Source of the DNA: Phycisphaerales bacterium
Lineage (GTDB): Bacteria; Planctomycetota; Phycisphaerae; UBA1845
Direction of reading: 5' to 3'
Assembly (NCBI GenBank): GCA_013140575.1
Contig: JABFSN010000151.1
Coordinates: forward strand, 1-64,000
DNA length: 64,000 nt
The position numbers and the translations under genes were made by a program. The notes beneath the pieces are model-generated. The model made no database searches and was not told the DNA's origin. It saw only the letters and a list, made by a program, of their open reading frames with translations. Positions 1-6,206 of this stretch are shown here, piece after piece; the stretch's first letter is position 1, and the number at the start of each line of letters is the position of its first letter.

Positions 1-708
1 GTGTTGATCGGGGGGGGCGTGGGGATCACGCCGGTGTTGAGCATGTTGAACGCGATTGCGGAGTGCGGGTCGACGCGGGAGACGTGGTTTTTCTACGGTG
101 TCCGGCACGGCGGCGAGCACATCATGCGGGATCACCTGCGACGACTGGATCAGGAACATGAGAACATTCACGTGCGGGCGTGTTACAGCGACGTGCGGCC
201 GGAAGATCGGGAGGGTGACGATTACGATATTGGCGAACGGGTGAGCGTGGAGTTGTTCAAGCGTTTGCTGCCGTCGAACAACTACGCGTTCTACATTTGC
301 GGTCCGCCGCCGATGATGAATTCGCTGACCGACGGTTTGAAGCAGTGGGGCGTCCCCGACGAGCGCATTTATTTCGAGGCGTTCGGACCGGCGAGCGTCA
401 AGCCGGCCAAACCACCGGCGGCGGCGGCGGCGGCGCTGGCGCCGGCCGCGGTTTCGGCGAAGGTGGCGTTCGCGCGGTCGGGCAAATCGTTTCCGTGGAG
501 CGGGGAGTCGAAATCACTGCTGGCGTTCGCGGAATCGAACGGGGTGGCGATGGAATCGGGCTGCCGGGCGGGGAATTGCGGGTCGTGCCTGGTGGCCGTC
601 AAGTCGGGCAAAGTACGATATTTGCAGCCACCGGGCGCGACGGTGGAGCCGGGGTCGTGCCTGACGTGTATTTCGGTTCCGGACGGCGATGTGACGATTG
701 ACGCGTGA
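1..708 (+). CDS. NAD(P)H-dependent flavin reductase with C-terminal 2Fe-2S ferredoxin domain (5' end missing)
   Basis: The frame is open from the first base, so the gene starts outside the window. The visible part begins inside the NAD-binding half of a ferredoxin-NADP-reductase-type fold (GGGVGITP at residues 4-11, CGPPPMM near 100). After an Ala/Pro linker (about 135-152) comes a plant-type 2Fe-2S domain with ligands C188, C193, C196 and C223. This resembles Hcr or phenol-hydroxylase-type reductases, which pass electrons from NAD(P)H through FAD to a 2Fe-2S centre. The FAD domain should lie upstream. Position 122 bp before the 4Fe-4S gene suggests it feeds electrons into the same chain; that role is inferred. 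Confidence 0.85.
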   Translation: MLIGGGVGITPVLSMLNAIAECGSTRETWFFYGVRHGGEHIMRDHLRRLDQEHENIHVRACYSDVRPEDREGDDYDIGERVSVELFKRLLPSNNYAFYICGPPPMMNSLTDGLKQWGVPDERIYFEAFGPASVKPAKPPAAAAAALAPAAVSAKVAFARSGKSFPWSGESKSLLAFAESNGVAMESGCRAGNCGSCLVAVKSGKVRYLQPPGATVEPGSCLTCISVPDGDVTIDA

Positions 709-830: not shown

Positions 831-2693
831 ATGAGTAAAGAGAGCGATCAGTCAAAACGGACCGGGGAGGGCTGGCGCGGGACAGAGCGCCGGATGAACC
901 GGGAGCGAGCCAAGGAGTGGTCGCACGCGGACCGGCGGAAATCGTGCGGTCTGGAGTCTTCGCGGCTGGGAATTGAGGTGCGCCGGCCGCAGCGGTGGGA
1001 CGTTTCGTTCGGGCGGGAGATGAGCGAAGCGGACGTGGACCGTTTGTTGGCCCGACCACCGTTTTGTCACATCGATGCATCGCGATTTCCGGAAGCGACG
1101 CCGTTGCGCGGCATTCTGCGGAACGACACGCGCATCCTGCGATTGAAGGAAGGGGACATCGTCGTTCGCGAAGGGGACTGGGGGCAGTCGGCATTTTTCG
1201 TGCTGTCGGGGGCGGTGCGGATCGTGATATCGCCGCCGGGGTTGCCTGCGGGAATGCTGGGGCGGCGGGAGGCGGATCGAAAAGGGTGGTTCCAGTCGCT
1301 GGCGCAGTTGTGGCGGAATTCCGAGCTGCCGGAAGTTCGGGATATCGCCCAATTCCGGTCGGACGGTCGGGTGGGCGTCCGTCAGGAGGGCGAGGACGAG
1401 GCGCGGATTTTTCTGGAGGACGTGCCCACTATTCTGGAGAAGTACGAGACGCGGCGGCTGTACGCCGGCCAGGTCAAGGAGGGCGACCTGTTCGGCGAGA
1501 TCGCGGCGTTGGGGCGTACGGAGCGAACGGCGACGGTGTTCGCGGAGGGCGAGACGGAGCTGCTGGAGATCCGCTGGCAGGGGTTGCGGGAGTTGCGGCG
1601 GCGGGACGACGCGCTGCGCGATCACATCGACAAGGTGTATCGCGAACGCAGCCTGGCCGTGCAGTTGCGGCACACGCCGTTGTTCGCCCATTTGAGCGAC
1701 GAGGCGATTCTAAACGTGGCCGTGCAAACGGTGTTCGAGACCTACGGGGAGTACGACTGGTACGGATCGTTCAAGGAGATGGTTTCGGAAGACGCGGGCA
1801 CGCGGCTGGAGCGGGAGCCGCTGATCGCGGACGAAGGGCATTACCCCAATGGAGTGAAGGTGATCCGATCGGGGTTCGCGCGCATGAGCCGGCAATTCGG
1901 CAACGGGCATCGGACGGTGAATTATCTGGGCCGAGGCCAAGTTTATGGGTTGCAGGAGGCAGCGCACAACTGGCGGACGGGTCAGCAGGCGGCGTGGCAG
2001 TATTCGCTGCGGGCGATCGGACACGTTCACATGCTGTGCATTCCGACGGCGGTGATTGAGGAATTCGTTCTGCCGACGTTGCCGGCGGATCAGATGCCGG
2101 CGTTGATCGCGGCGCCGTCGCCGACGGAGGGCGCGGCGGGGGGCTATGACACGGGGATCGCGCCGGGGATGCTGGAATTCCTGGCGGACCGGCGGTTCAT
2201 CAACGGCAAGGCCACGATGCTGATTGACATGGACCGTTGCACGCGGTGCGACGATTGCGTGCGGGCATGCGCGGAGGCGCACGACGGATCGCCGCGATTC
2301 ATCCGCCATGGTGCGCGGCACGGACGGTTCATGGTGGCCAACGCGTGCATGCACTGCGCCGACCCGGTGTGCATGATCGGGTGCCCGACGGGTGCGATTC
2401 ACCGGGATCGTTACCGCGGGCAGGTGGTGATCAACGACGCAACGTGCATCGGCTGCTCGACGTGCGCGAACAACTGCCCGTATCACAATATTCGGATGGT
2501 GGAGGCGCGGGACCGGAACGGGCAGTTCATTCTCGACGAGCACACGCATTGGCCGATTCAGAAGGCGACCAAGTGCGACCTGTGCGTGGATCAACTGGGG
2601 GGTCCGGCGTGCCAGCGGGCGTGCCCGCACGATGCGTTGAAGCGCGTGGACATGTCCGATCTGCAATCGCTGGCGTCGTGGATCAATCGATGA
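831..2693 (+). CDS. Cyclic-nucleotide-binding domain protein fused to a four-cluster 4Fe-4S ferredoxin domain
   Basis: 620 residues. Residues about 90-265 form a CRP-type cyclic-nucleotide-binding domain split by an insertion of about 100 residues; its phosphate-binding cassette reads FGEIAALGRTERTATV (221-236, R232). A second, degenerate copy follows (about 280-440) without the cassette arginine. The C-terminus has 16 cysteines in four groups (C470/473/476/480, C506/509/514/518, C539/542/545/549, C582/585/594/598), the pattern of DmsB/HybA-type electron-transfer subunits with four 4Fe-4S clusters. No helix-turn-helix is visible, so it is probably an allosterically gated redox protein rather than a transcription factor. 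Its stop overlaps the next gene's start (ATGA). Confidence 0.85.
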   Translation: MSKESDQSKRTGEGWRGTERRMNRERAKEWSHADRRKSCGLESSRLGIEVRRPQRWDVSFGREMSEADVDRLLARPPFCHIDASRFPEATPLRGILRNDTRILRLKEGDIVVREGDWGQSAFFVLSGAVRIVISPPGLPAGMLGRREADRKGWFQSLAQLWRNSELPEVRDIAQFRSDGRVGVRQEGEDEARIFLEDVPTILEKYETRRLYAGQVKEGDLFGEIAALGRTERTATVFAEGETELLEIRWQGLRELRRRDDALRDHIDKVYRERSLAVQLRHTPLFAHLSDEAILNVAVQTVFETYGEYDWYGSFKEMVSEDAGTRLEREPLIADEGHYPNGVKVIRSGFARMSRQFGNGHRTVNYLGRGQVYGLQEAAHNWRTGQQAAWQYSLRAIGHVHMLCIPTAVIEEFVLPTLPADQMPALIAAPSPTEGAAGGYDTGIAPGMLEFLADRRFINGKATMLIDMDRCTRCDDCVRACAEAHDGSPRFIRHGARHGRFMVANACMHCADPVCMIGCPTGAIHRDRYRGQVVINDATCIGCSTCANNCPYHNIRMVEARDRNGQFILDEHTHWPIQKATKCDLCVDQLGGPACQRACPHDALKRVDMSDLQSLASWINR

Positions 2694-3514
2694 CCGGCGT
2701 GCGGTTAAGACGATCGGTGGGGCTGACCGCGGTGGGTGTTTTGACCGTCGGGGCGGTCGCGCTGCACAACGCCGGGGCGGTGGCGTTGTATCAAATCAGC
2801 CTGGCGACGGGGGCGTTGTTATTCGTGATGATCGTGACGGCGACACTGCTGAATGTGCGCAAGAAGGCGCCGTTCCTGCCGCTGGGGAATACGACGGACT
2901 GGCTGACGTTTCACATGGTGGTGGGGCTGGGCACGGTGGTGGTGTACGCGATCCATACCGGGGGTCGCTGGCCGGACGGCATTCTGGAATTCGCGCTGGC
3001 GGCGACGTACTGGTCGGTGATCGCGACGGGAATGGCGGGTTGGGCGTTTTCGCGGTGGTTGGCGCCGCGGCTGGCGCGGCGCGGTGAAAACGTGCTGTTC
3101 GAGCGTATCGGACGGTTTCGCGCCCAGTTGCGCGCGGAGGCGGAAACGTTGGTGTTGCGGGCCGCGTCCGAACAGGGATCGACCACCATCCCGGATTTTT
3201 ACGCGGCGCATCTGGCGGATTTTTTTGATCGGCCACGGCATTTGGTGTCGCACGCGGTGGAGTCCGATCACCCGCGTCACGTGTTACTGGGCGAGGTGGA
3301 GTTGCTGCGGCGCTACCTGAACGCGGGCGAGCGGGGCGTGCTGGACGGTCTTCGCGAGTTGATCTGCCTGAAAGATGATCTGGATTATCAGTACAGCGGG
3401 CAGGCGATTCTGAAGTATTGGTTGTTCGTTCACATTCCGTTGACGTATGCGTTGATTCTGCTGGGGCTGGTACACGGGATTACATCCGGTGCGTTCAGCG
3501 GGGGGTTGTTATGA
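2690..3514 (+). CDS. Cytochrome b-like membrane protein
   Basis: 274 residues, start chosen at the ATGA overlap with the upstream 4Fe-4S gene. Hydrophobic segments lie near 9-31, 35-55, 71-90, 98-122 and 243-265, with a soluble stretch of about 110 residues between the fourth and fifth. Histidines H75/H89 and H248/H262 form two pairs, each 14 residues apart, the spacing of bis-haem b ligands in cytochrome b helices. The family was not recognised by name; haem b binding is inferred from that geometry. It would link the cytoplasmic Fe-S protein to the multihaem cytochrome encoded next, whose start again overlaps by ATGA. Confidence 0.75.
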   Translation: MTGVRLRRSVGLTAVGVLTVGAVALHNAGAVALYQISLATGALLFVMIVTATLLNVRKKAPFLPLGNTTDWLTFHMVVGLGTVVVYAIHTGGRWPDGILEFALAATYWSVIATGMAGWAFSRWLAPRLARRGENVLFERIGRFRAQLRAEAETLVLRAASEQGSTTIPDFYAAHLADFFDRPRHLVSHAVESDHPRHVLLGEVELLRRYLNAGERGVLDGLRELICLKDDLDYQYSGQAILKYWLFVHIPLTYALILLGLVHGITSGAFSGGLL

Positions 3515-5826
3515 CCCGCACGTTGCAGGATTTTTCGTTCGACAAGAGCGAATATGAGCGGCCGACGCAGCCCTGGATTTGCGGCCGAGCGGAATCCGGG
3601 GAACCGTGCCGAATCGGACCGGACGAGACGGGGCGGTGCCGGGCGACGTTCGAGTGCCGCCCGGTGCGCAAGGGCGACGGATGGGAATGCGCCCGGCCGC
3701 GGCAGTGGGGCGGGCCTTGCGCCGGGGGTCCATCGCCGGACGGATGTTGCGCCCGGCCGATTCCGAGATGCCAACCTGTGCGGAGCATGCGCTCGAAGCG
3801 CGGGCATGTGGTGCTGTGGACGTGCATGGCGACGGTGGGGGCGCTGGCGTGGCTGCTGGCGGTTCCGGAGCGGCGGGCGCGGGTCTTGCTGCCCGGTCCG
3901 TTGTCGGGGGCGCACAGCGCCATGGAAACCGAATGCGACAAGTGCCACCAGGTGTCCCTCGGCGACACGAGCGGGTGGCCGTCCGCGGCGCTGGTCTCGA
4001 CGCTGGGATCGGGTGTGCAGAACCTGCAATGCCAGGTGTGCCACGCGTGGGGCGCGGACGCGGACCGTCCGCACAGTCTTTCGGCGCGAGCGCTGGCCGG
4101 CATGGTGGTGGCAGCCGAACGGACCACGGGTCCGAAACGGGGCGGGTCGTGGCGGTTGTCGCTGGCCGCGGCGATTGCCGGGGGCAAGCGCTCGGCGACG
4201 GCGCCCCTGTCGTGCGTTCCGTGTCACGACGAGCATCGCGGGCGATCGCACCGGCCGGCGGAGATCAGCGACGAACAATGCCAGGTATGCCACGTCCGGC
4301 AGTTTGACGGATTCGCCGGTCATCCGGCGTTCGCGGACTATCCGTTGGAATCGGCCGTCGGCATCCATTTCGATCACGGATCGCATCGGGACCATTTCAC
4401 TGAGCGCGGGCGCGATCTGCGGAATCGTTGCGATGACTGCCATCGGCTGACTGCGGATGGTGCGGCCATGGCGCCCACCGGGTTTGCGGCGTCGTGTGCG
4501 GAGTGCCATGCCGCGGAAATTCACGGCGAGGGAGTGGAGGACGTGGCGTTGAACGTGATGAGCCTGCCCGGTCTGGATACGGAGACGTTGCGGGCCCGGG
4601 GGATCGCGGTGGGTCATTGGGCGGAAGGTCTCGATGGCATCATCACAACTACGATGAAGCTGATCCTGTCCGCCGGAAACGAATCGATCCGACGGGATCT
4701 GGATCGCACCCAGAAGATGGATTGGGAAGACCTGGCGGCCGCGGACGACGAGCAACTGGCGGCCATCGCGCGGCTGGCGTGGGCGGTCAAGGAGTTTTAT
4801 TTCGATCTGTACGTTGAAGGTCACGGCGCCCTCGGCGCCCGGCTGGCGACGGCGCTGGGGCGAGCGTCGGGGCCTGGCGAGGCCAACCTGTGGCATGGAC
4901 AACTGCCGGTCGGCTTGATTCGCGAGGGGATCGACGAATGGATGCCGAACCTGCTGGACGAAGTGCCCCGTCATCGCCGCGGGGAGCGCGTTGAATCGCG
5001 CGGCGACGCGGCCGGTGATGCGTCGCACGAGGTGGATCCGGCGATCGGGGCTGCGGGGACGGAAGGCGCTCCGACGGATGCGGCCGGCGACGATTTGTTG
5101 GGCGGCGGAGAATCGGAGCCTCCGCCCGATGATGATCTATTGGGCGGCGGTGATCCGGACGACCTGTTGGGAGGCGGTGGGCAGGAACCGGCGCCGCCGG
5201 GACCGGTTCGCGAGCCGTCGCCCGTCGCCACGTTGTCCGCCGACGAGTGGATGATCGGCGGCGGCTGGTTCCGCGAGCATTGTGTTTTCCGTTACCGACC
5301 GACCGGACATGGGGACACGTTTCTGCGGAGCTGGCTGGATCTTGCCGGGCGGCTGTCGCCGTCGGCGGAGGCGAGCGCCGATCCGGCATGGCTGCTGTTC
5401 GACTATTTCGGTGATCCGACGTCGGCCGGGTTGTGCATCCGATGCCACGGCGTGGACGAAGTTCCCGGATCGGGTCGCGTGGTGCGCTGGGAATCAACAT
5501 CGCCGGGTTCGAGCGGGCGGGCGTTTGTGCGATTCGATCACGGGCCGCACGTTCGGCTGGAGTCGCGGTTGGGATGCGATCATTGCCACGTCGCATCCGC
5601 GGATCCGCCGCCGAAGGTGGGCGAAAATCCGCGCAGGGGACGTGGGTTTGCACCAATCGAAAAATCCAAATGTGCGGAATGCCACCAACCCGAACGGGTC
5701 GGCGATTCCTGTTTGACCTGTCATCAGTATCACGCGCGTCCGGGGTACGACATTTCAGGATCGTCGCCCGTGGGTTCGACCGCCGGCGGGCGAGCGATGA
5801 CCGATGTTTCATCGGCCGGTCGATGA
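3511..5826 (+). CDS. Ten-haem cytochrome c with Cys-rich N-terminus and one membrane anchor
   Basis: 771 residues. Ten CxxCH motifs are visible between residue 142 (CDKCH) and 734 (CLTCH): CDKCH, CQVCH, CVPCH, CQVCH, CDDCH, CAECH, CIRCH, CDHCH, CAECH, CLTCH. Before the membrane segment (about 99-119) is a Cys-rich domain with nine cysteines, presumably cytoplasmic. A low-complexity Asp/Gly/Pro stretch with repeated DDLLGGG lies at about 525-565, between the haem groups. Expected topology is one anchor with the haems outside the cytoplasmic membrane. As last gene of the cluster it is the likely electron outlet; the acceptor is unknown. The Cys-rich part could hold Fe-S or zinc, which the sequence does not settle. 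Confidence 0.85.
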   Translation: MTRTLQDFSFDKSEYERPTQPWICGRAESGEPCRIGPDETGRCRATFECRPVRKGDGWECARPRQWGGPCAGGPSPDGCCARPIPRCQPVRSMRSKRGHVVLWTCMATVGALAWLLAVPERRARVLLPGPLSGAHSAMETECDKCHQVSLGDTSGWPSAALVSTLGSGVQNLQCQVCHAWGADADRPHSLSARALAGMVVAAERTTGPKRGGSWRLSLAAAIAGGKRSATAPLSCVPCHDEHRGRSHRPAEISDEQCQVCHVRQFDGFAGHPAFADYPLESAVGIHFDHGSHRDHFTERGRDLRNRCDDCHRLTADGAAMAPTGFAASCAECHAAEIHGEGVEDVALNVMSLPGLDTETLRARGIAVGHWAEGLDGIITTTMKLILSAGNESIRRDLDRTQKMDWEDLAAADDEQLAAIARLAWAVKEFYFDLYVEGHGALGARLATALGRASGPGEANLWHGQLPVGLIREGIDEWMPNLLDEVPRHRRGERVESRGDAAGDASHEVDPAIGAAGTEGAPTDAAGDDLLGGGESEPPPDDDLLGGGDPDDLLGGGGQEPAPPGPVREPSPVATLSADEWMIGGGWFREHCVFRYRPTGHGDTFLRSWLDLAGRLSPSAEASADPAWLLFDYFGDPTSAGLCIRCHGVDEVPGSGRVVRWESTSPGSSGRAFVRFDHGPHVRLESRLGCDHCHVASADPPPKVGENPRRGRGFAPIEKSKCAECHQPERVGDSCLTCHQYHARPGYDISGSSPVGSTAGGRAMTDVSSAGR

Positions 5827-6206
5827 TTCGCACGCAATCAGCGTGTCGCATTCCATTTCGTGCACCGGGCGCAGGCGCGGTAATGGAACGGCGATGGGTT
5901 TCGCACCGGGACGGCGTCCGTGGGCTTGCGCCCGCGGCTCTGATTCGGATTTTCGACGCTTATCACGTTCGACGTTTCATCGATTTCAGTTGGGGATCGG
6001 AAGACAACACCGAGCGCGACGAGGTTGTGCCTTGCGTATCGCAGTTCCCATGCGACGGTCGGCGGCGAAAGGGGCCGCAACCCCGTTGGGGTTGATTCCC
6101 CGGTCGCGACGCTTACCCAGGGTAGCCGCTGCGCGGCAACCCTGGGCTTGAAGCCGGAACGCCTTCGGCGTACGGGGTTCTGAAGTCCGTGCGGCGCGCG
6201 GAGTTG
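5827..6206. other. Intergenic region without a supported gene
   Basis: 380 bp between the cytochrome c gene and a convergent hydrolase gene. Short open frames exist on both strands but lack recognisable domains or ribosome binding sites. The right half holds a hairpin repeat (separate entry). Confidence 0.5.
6115..6182. repeat. Intergenic hairpin repeat
   Basis: Inverted arms CCCAGGGT and ACCCTGGG around a short spacer, followed by a second short palindrome (CGCCTTCGGCG). The same style of imperfect hairpin unit recurs at 13.7, 14.5-14.8 and 61.4 kb. It lies between two convergent genes and could act as a terminator, but no T-run follows. Confidence 0.5.

Follow-up and report, generated by a model that had tools for sequence, protein, structure and literature searches.

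How might electrons from NAD(P)H leave the cytoplasm through the genes that open the window analysed here, and would a cyclic nucleotide control their exit? The window is a stretch of 64,000 nucleotides from the Phycisphaerales bacterium assembly GCA_013140575.1 (contig JABFSN010000151.1, positions 1 to 64,000; assembly of 5.05 Mb, 96% complete). Its first position is position 1 of the contig (C264), and the FAD domain of the first gene product, a reductase, is missing because the contig begins there. Three further genes follow (831–2693, 2690–3514 and 3511–5826), with ATGA overlaps at both of their junctions. Judged from their sequences, the four genes may well encode the inner-membrane half of a conduit that, independently of quinones and under cyclic-nucleotide control, takes electrons from NAD(P)H to the surface, a reading that we hold with slightly better than even confidence. 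It is built on the following features.

1..708, forward strand: FNR-type FAD/NAD(P)H/2Fe-2S reductase, 3′ part (Pfam NAD_binding_1, 3.9e-21; Fer2, 7.3e-11)
831..2693, forward strand: 620-residue protein with a cyclic nucleotide-binding domain (CNBD), a degenerate CNBD and a four-cluster 4Fe-4S part (translation, Pfam, alignment)
1491..1538, forward strand: phosphate-binding cassette FGEIAALGRTERTATV of that protein, residues 221–236 (conservation of G222, E223, R232 and T233)
2238..2624, forward strand: its 16 Cys ligands of four 4Fe-4S clusters, residues 470–598 (each Cys in 92/92 sequences; PDB matches)
2690..3514, forward strand: membrane cytochrome b, 274 residues, with H75/H89 (helix 68–90) and H248/H262 (helix 212–269)
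3511..5826, forward strand: membrane-anchored decahaem cytochrome c, 771 residues (exactly ten CxxCH)
3580..3771, forward strand: cytoplasmic eight-Cys domain of the decahaem protein, C24, C33, C43, C49, C60, C70, C80 and C87 (conservation)
3802..3864, forward strand: sole membrane anchor of the decahaem protein, residues ~98–118 (hydropathy)
3934..4509, forward strand: haem domain 1 of the decahaem protein, six CxxCH, residues 142–333 (alignment; 6r2q_A match)
5434..5724, forward strand: haem domain 2 of the decahaem protein, four CxxCH, residues 642–738 (Pfam, alignment)

The sequence-only reading of this DNA had described an NAD(P)H-flavin-2Fe-2S reductase upstream of three ATGA-coupled genes, for a cyclic-nucleotide-domain protein with four 4Fe-4S clusters, a membrane protein with two pairs of histidines and an anchored ten-haem cytochrome. 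Translation and Pfam searches find every one of the claimed motifs at the residues given, and a chance origin is excluded because the same motifs recur across phyla with little or no variation. The 620-residue protein matches Pfam cNMP_binding (PF00027) at 2.6e-24 and Fer4 families down to 2e-11. Its nucleotide pocket has the cassette of a ligand-competent CNBD, with G222 and E223 each in 92/92 sequences, R232 in 91/92 and T233 in 75/92; a Thr following the cassette Arg is compatible with cGMP or cAMP. The domain is interrupted by an insert of about 75 residues, after which comes a second, degenerate CNBD-like domain without the cassette. The 16 cysteines form four sets (C470/473/476/480, C506/509/514/518, C539/542/545/549 and C582/585/594/598), all retained as in a four-cluster ferredoxin, and this part matches HycB/NrfC-type subunits in the PDB (HycB3, 6.3e-16). 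The reductase resembles flavohaemoprotein reductase domains. Full-length reductases of relatives open with a hydrophobic transmembrane anchor, followed in some lineages by an FHA domain, and an FHA domain also lies within some of the relatives' CNBD/Fe-S proteins.

Conservation of the two histidine pairs had been proposed as a check on the membrane protein, and H75, H89, H248 and H262 are invariant in 49/49 sequences from many phyla. In the predicted structure (mean predicted local distance difference test score, pLDDT, 92), H75 and H89 share one helix and H248 and H262 another. Basic residues at positions 1–9 and 54–68 point to a cytoplasmic location for the N-terminus and for the loop that precedes the first His helix, which would make both His helices run in the same direction, with H75 and H248 on the cytoplasmic side and H89 and H262 on the periplasmic side; the haems would then be held by the pairs H75/H248 and H89/H262. 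The start codon of this gene is uncertain because the first ~47 residues are not conserved. No family scored above threshold in Pfam, NCBIfam or PHROGs (the best Pfam hit is the sub-threshold DUF4405, E 0.07), and there was no PDB match to the sequence and no Foldseek match to the model at E≤0.001. TorS, McpS and PilJ, aligned by VIA-align with Z up to 11.8, lie within the range of unrelated helical models and were rejected as kin, being helical-bundle look-alikes.

The third protein carries ten CxxCH motifs and a single hydrophobic segment, as claimed for an anchored ten-haem cytochrome. It matches Pfam Cytochrome_C7 (3.7e-10), and the ten motifs are kept in 70/70 sequences and number exactly ten in 69/69 complete homologues. 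Among the candidate distal ligands, H135, H242, H271, H289, H292, H677, H680 and H741 are invariant, while H188 is kept in 80% and H600 in 50%, a pattern that fits ten bis-His haems. The N-terminal haem part of the decahaem profile matches PDB chain 6r2q_A at 6e-8; we take 6R2Q to be MtrCAB and its chain A to be MtrA, although the structure file labels the chain cystathionine beta-synthase. The eight-Cys domain is assigned to the cytoplasmic side because it is placed before the membrane anchor. Each of its cysteines is found in 69–70 of the 70 sequences, across phyla. The domain has no Pfam match, and in the 119 genomes searched every occurrence is at a decahaem gene of this kind or in an equally long open frame. 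The cysteines might ligate a further two clusters or zinc, or have neither role.

A cross-phylum scan of named genomes returned 498 relatives. The best 80 of these were analysed, so that the list of host phyla is a lower bound: Planctomycetota, Verrucomicrobiota, Pseudomonadota, SAR324, Nitrospinota, Nitrospirota and the candidate phyla Latescibacterota, Zixiibacteriota and Poribacteria. In Planctomycetota, 50 of 294 genomes contain a match to the cytochrome b; no relatives were found on viral contigs. The expectation that the four genes would occur together elsewhere is borne out: reductase, in some cases tetrahaem cytochrome, CNBD/Fe-S protein, cytochrome b and decahaem cytochrome follow one another in Planctomycetota, Verrucomicrobiota, Pseudomonadota, SAR324, Nitrospinota and other groups. 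At loci with enough flank the cytochrome b gene is adjacent in 76/76 cases, the decahaem gene in 62/62, and a reductase gene is near in 58/60. This co-occurrence is too strong for chance neighbours. A recurring order among the 20 Planctomycetota neighbourhoods compared is pentahaem cytochrome, Pfam-less protein of ~470–580 residues, reductase, tetrahaem cytochrome, CNBD/Fe-S protein, cytochrome b and decahaem cytochrome. All seven genes are held by the cluster of a Planctomycetota metagenome-assembled genome (MAG), L072, the nearest relative of the window protein in the tree (98% Shimodaira–Hasegawa-like approximate likelihood ratio test support), and the seven-gene set is also present in the isolate Hwanghaeella grinnelliae (L083). 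Cluster proteins from four MAG records (L094, L102, L105 and L123), which bear the titles Klebsiella pneumoniae or Akkermansia muciniphila, group together within the verrucomicrobial clade, and the titles are probably misassigned. An HbpS-like gene (haem-degrading family) recurs near the cluster, at L117:550-2070 and 16 other loci, mostly in Verrucomicrobiota and also in L072.

A route across the outer membrane is suggested by the genes that adjoin the cluster in many relatives, where a pentahaem cytochrome gene stands beside an outer-membrane beta-barrel gene in the pairing characteristic of porin-cytochrome conduits. The 467-residue partner in L072 has no Pfam match and is predicted to form a beta-barrel after a short, signal-like N-terminal helix (mean pLDDT 79); its model matches solved outer-membrane porins (Foldseek E 4e-12, TM about 0.5–0.6). 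The pentahaem profile matches cytochrome c552 in the PDB (5ze8, 1.6e-16), and the tetrahaem profile matches cytochrome c554 (6.7e-14). In part of the Verrucomicrobiota the same inner-membrane module is adjoined by a different pair, a Pfam-less protein of ~700–780 residues and a decahaem cytochrome of ~1300 residues. The two pairs would be alternative outer-membrane modules on one inner-membrane module, the verrucomicrobial ~700–780-residue protein presumably being a barrel as well.

Class III cyclase genes, a candidate source of the nucleotide, lie beside the cluster in one genus (L040, L042 and L044), at L052, L093 and L138, in SAR324 (L079), in an alphaproteobacterium (L137) and in one Verrucomicrobiota clade. 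Several genomes with a cyclase beside the cluster hold few class III cyclases in all: two each in G069, G181, G227 and G297 (6.6–7.8 Mb) and in G296 (6.0 Mb), and three in G152. We estimate a chance of ~0.6% that, in a 7 Mb genome, one of two cyclases lands inside a given ~20 kb; four Planctomycetota lineages among about twenty examined have a linked cyclase, against an estimated 0.1–0.2 expected. The linkage in SAR324 and in the alphaproteobacterium, whose genomes hold 88 and 22 cyclases, carries little weight. In the window genome, an FHA-type class III cyclase with full-length similarity to the cluster-linked L042 enzyme is cut at the end of contig C196 (L070:1-1268), which possibly joins the window contig.

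From this arrangement we infer the flow of electrons, its direction, the ligand, the gating and the final acceptor as follows. A membrane-tethered flavoprotein would oxidise cytoplasmic NAD(P)H, and its 2Fe-2S cluster would hand the electrons to the ferredoxin domain, with its four clusters, of the CNBD protein. The next stations would be the two b haems, first the one near the cytoplasm (H75/H248) and then the one near the periplasm (H89/H262), followed by the anchored decahaem cytochrome. Where relatives have the complete cluster, the electrons would continue through the periplasmic c554-like tetrahaem cytochrome to the pentahaem cytochrome beside the barrel and end on an acceptor that lies at the outer membrane or beyond it. 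A cyclic nucleotide of the cAMP or cGMP class, bound in the intact CNBD, would tune docking or transfer, making the conduit a controlled NAD(P)H-oxidising outlet. The sequence-only proposal that a nucleotide signal controls electron transfer from NAD(P)H to the extracytoplasmic side thus gains support from the pentahaem and barrel genes of relatives and from the recurrent cyclase adjacency, and stays an interpretation. A stronger version, which we regard as tentative and somewhat short of an even chance, is that the module is a widespread inner-membrane entrance, NAD(P)H-fed and quinone-bypassing, that is switched directly by a cyclic nucleotide from cluster-linked cyclases and possibly has two extra metal clusters in the eight-Cys domain. 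If so, we know of no earlier redox wire that is gated by a second messenger.

Several observations weigh against the conduit or its control. Of the 32 loci flanked by 8 kb at both ends, only 10 have a pentahaem or barrel gene, and the outer-membrane step may therefore use other or unlinked partners. A search of the window genome assembly found no pentahaem gene, no barrel gene and no reductase N-terminus, and the tetrahaem orthologue of this genome (53% identical to that of L072) lies on another contig, C108 (L068:8518-9555); the simplest reading of the missing genes is an assembly gap at the contig break, as opposed to real absence. Cyclases adjoin only a minority of clusters, and most of the verrucomicrobial cases come from one clade in which the cyclase is part of a FecR/CHASE2 module. 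Class III cyclases usually have a Lys at the substrate position, and the L042-type cyclase, read from its sequence, is without it. Electron flow from NAD(P)H to the surface would not by itself conserve energy. The conduit as a whole is argued from sequence and predicted structure.

Among other explanations, the CNBD may serve as a structural scaffold or as a redox or regulatory sensor with no gating, an idea that overlaps the wire, so that its probability does not exclude it, and that we consider rather unlikely. The second CNBD-like domain without a cassette speaks for it, and CNBD folds do also serve without ligand; against it stand the recurrent cyclase neighbours and a Gly-Glu-Arg set that is conserved, across many phyla, in 91–92 of 92 sequences. 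The complex could alternatively be quinol-linked, with the cytochrome b fed by menaquinol and the reductase/Fe-S branch used for another purpose. Two-haem membrane cytochromes b often serve quinones, but the reductase and the four-cluster protein are nearly always present here, and the lone locus lacking both (variant cluster L058:6026-8711) has lost H75, which is Gln there, a single case in the predicted direction; we think a quinol-linked complex highly improbable.

It is unlikely that the electrons instead reach soluble acceptors such as nitrite, hydroxylamine, nitric oxide or peroxide through the c554-like and c552-like cytochromes and never the surface. The likeness of these cytochromes and of the flavohaemoprotein-type reductase would suit such a periplasmic reductase, yet a purely periplasmic enzyme would not need the barrel gene beside the pentahaem gene. 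The same wire could also run inward, with Fe(II), Mn(II), sulfide or partner cells as the outside donor and cytoplasmic carriers as recipients, given that extracellular electron transfer is described as bidirectional (PMC6295460) and that a MAG titled Mariprofundus (L150) carries the cluster. Uphill transfer to NAD(P)+ would, however, call for an energy-coupling subunit, and neither an NrfD nor a pump was seen in the cluster; most hosts are, as far as can be judged, not known as iron oxidisers, and electron intake is a distinctly unlikely alternative to the outward conduit.

The proposed NAD(P)H-fed conduit, as seen in relatives, shares with the porin-cytochrome systems MtrCAB, OmbB/OmaB/OmcB and MtoAB a barrel gene next to a multihaem cytochrome gene; it differs in its Pfam-less barrel and in an entrance that would start from NAD(P)H and bears a CNBD. 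The 16-Cys four-cluster module is that of the HycB/NrfC/DmsB-type ferredoxins, here fused behind a cNMP domain; neither a molybdenum enzyme nor an NrfD partner was identified in the cluster. An NrfABCD-type complex was rejected because the sole membrane subunit has no NrfD match (Pfam, NCBIfam) and carries haem-ligand His pairs. The layout proposed here resembles that of NADPH oxidases and ferric reductases (PF01794), in which two bis-His haems on helices 3 and 5, with a spacing of 13–14 residues, receive electrons from an FAD/NAD(P)H reductase; here, the reductase is a separate gene and four Fe-S clusters lie between. The cytochrome b gave no match to the Ferric_reduct fold in Pfam or in Foldseek at E≤0.001, and a missing match of this kind is not exclusionary. 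CymA, CbcL and ImcH are also membrane-bound multihaem cytochromes linking the inner membrane to outer-membrane conduits, and in CbcL, too, c haems are combined with a b-type membrane part. They are quinol oxidases/quinone reductases, however, whereas the cytochrome b considered here is a protein of its own, which would be fed by a likewise separate flavoprotein together with a four-cluster ferredoxin. Their c haems sit on a NapC-type anchor or share a chain with a multi-helix membrane domain (PMC6295460); identity with them was rejected, since here one protein bears the c haems and another is the cytochrome b, and the decahaem protein has one transmembrane anchor.

The rest of the window in large share resembles a ribosomal-protein/rpoB region, as read from its sequences, and two copies of the Acido-Lenti-1 RNA (RF01687; 13766–13811 and 14806–14851) lie amid ribosomal-protein genes. 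Directly past the decahaem gene, at 5831–5972, is a palindrome-rich dispersed element of ~110–140 bp with 42 more partial matches genome-wide. Several copies terminate in the complementary arms GTGATTAGCGT / ACGCTAATCAC, which gives the element the look of a repetitive extragenic palindrome or a miniature inverted-repeat transposable element.

A porin and a multihaem cytochrome have been proposed for extracellular electron transfer in Verrucomicrobia (He et al. 2017, PMC5615132), a proposal that resembles the present one and comes from a phylum where the module is common. There the inner-membrane step appears only as an unnamed 'ET in IM', and the words cyclic nucleotide do not occur in the text of the paper. 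The inner-membrane entrances surveyed in PMC6295460 are three quinol-linked families, rare in Planctomycetes (2 homologues) and Verrucomicrobia (5). We found no published description of the inner-membrane module, preprints and most subscription journals being outside the coverage of our search. Common in Planctomycetota and Verrucomicrobiota and present in other phyla, the module appears to draw on NAD(P)H and to couple the outflow to a second-messenger pocket. If this is true, it would give these bacteria a regulated redox outlet and be a candidate for the unnamed inner-membrane step of the verrucomicrobial conduits, and cyclic-nucleotide gating of an electron wire would become testable in a named isolate, Hwanghaeella grinnelliae.

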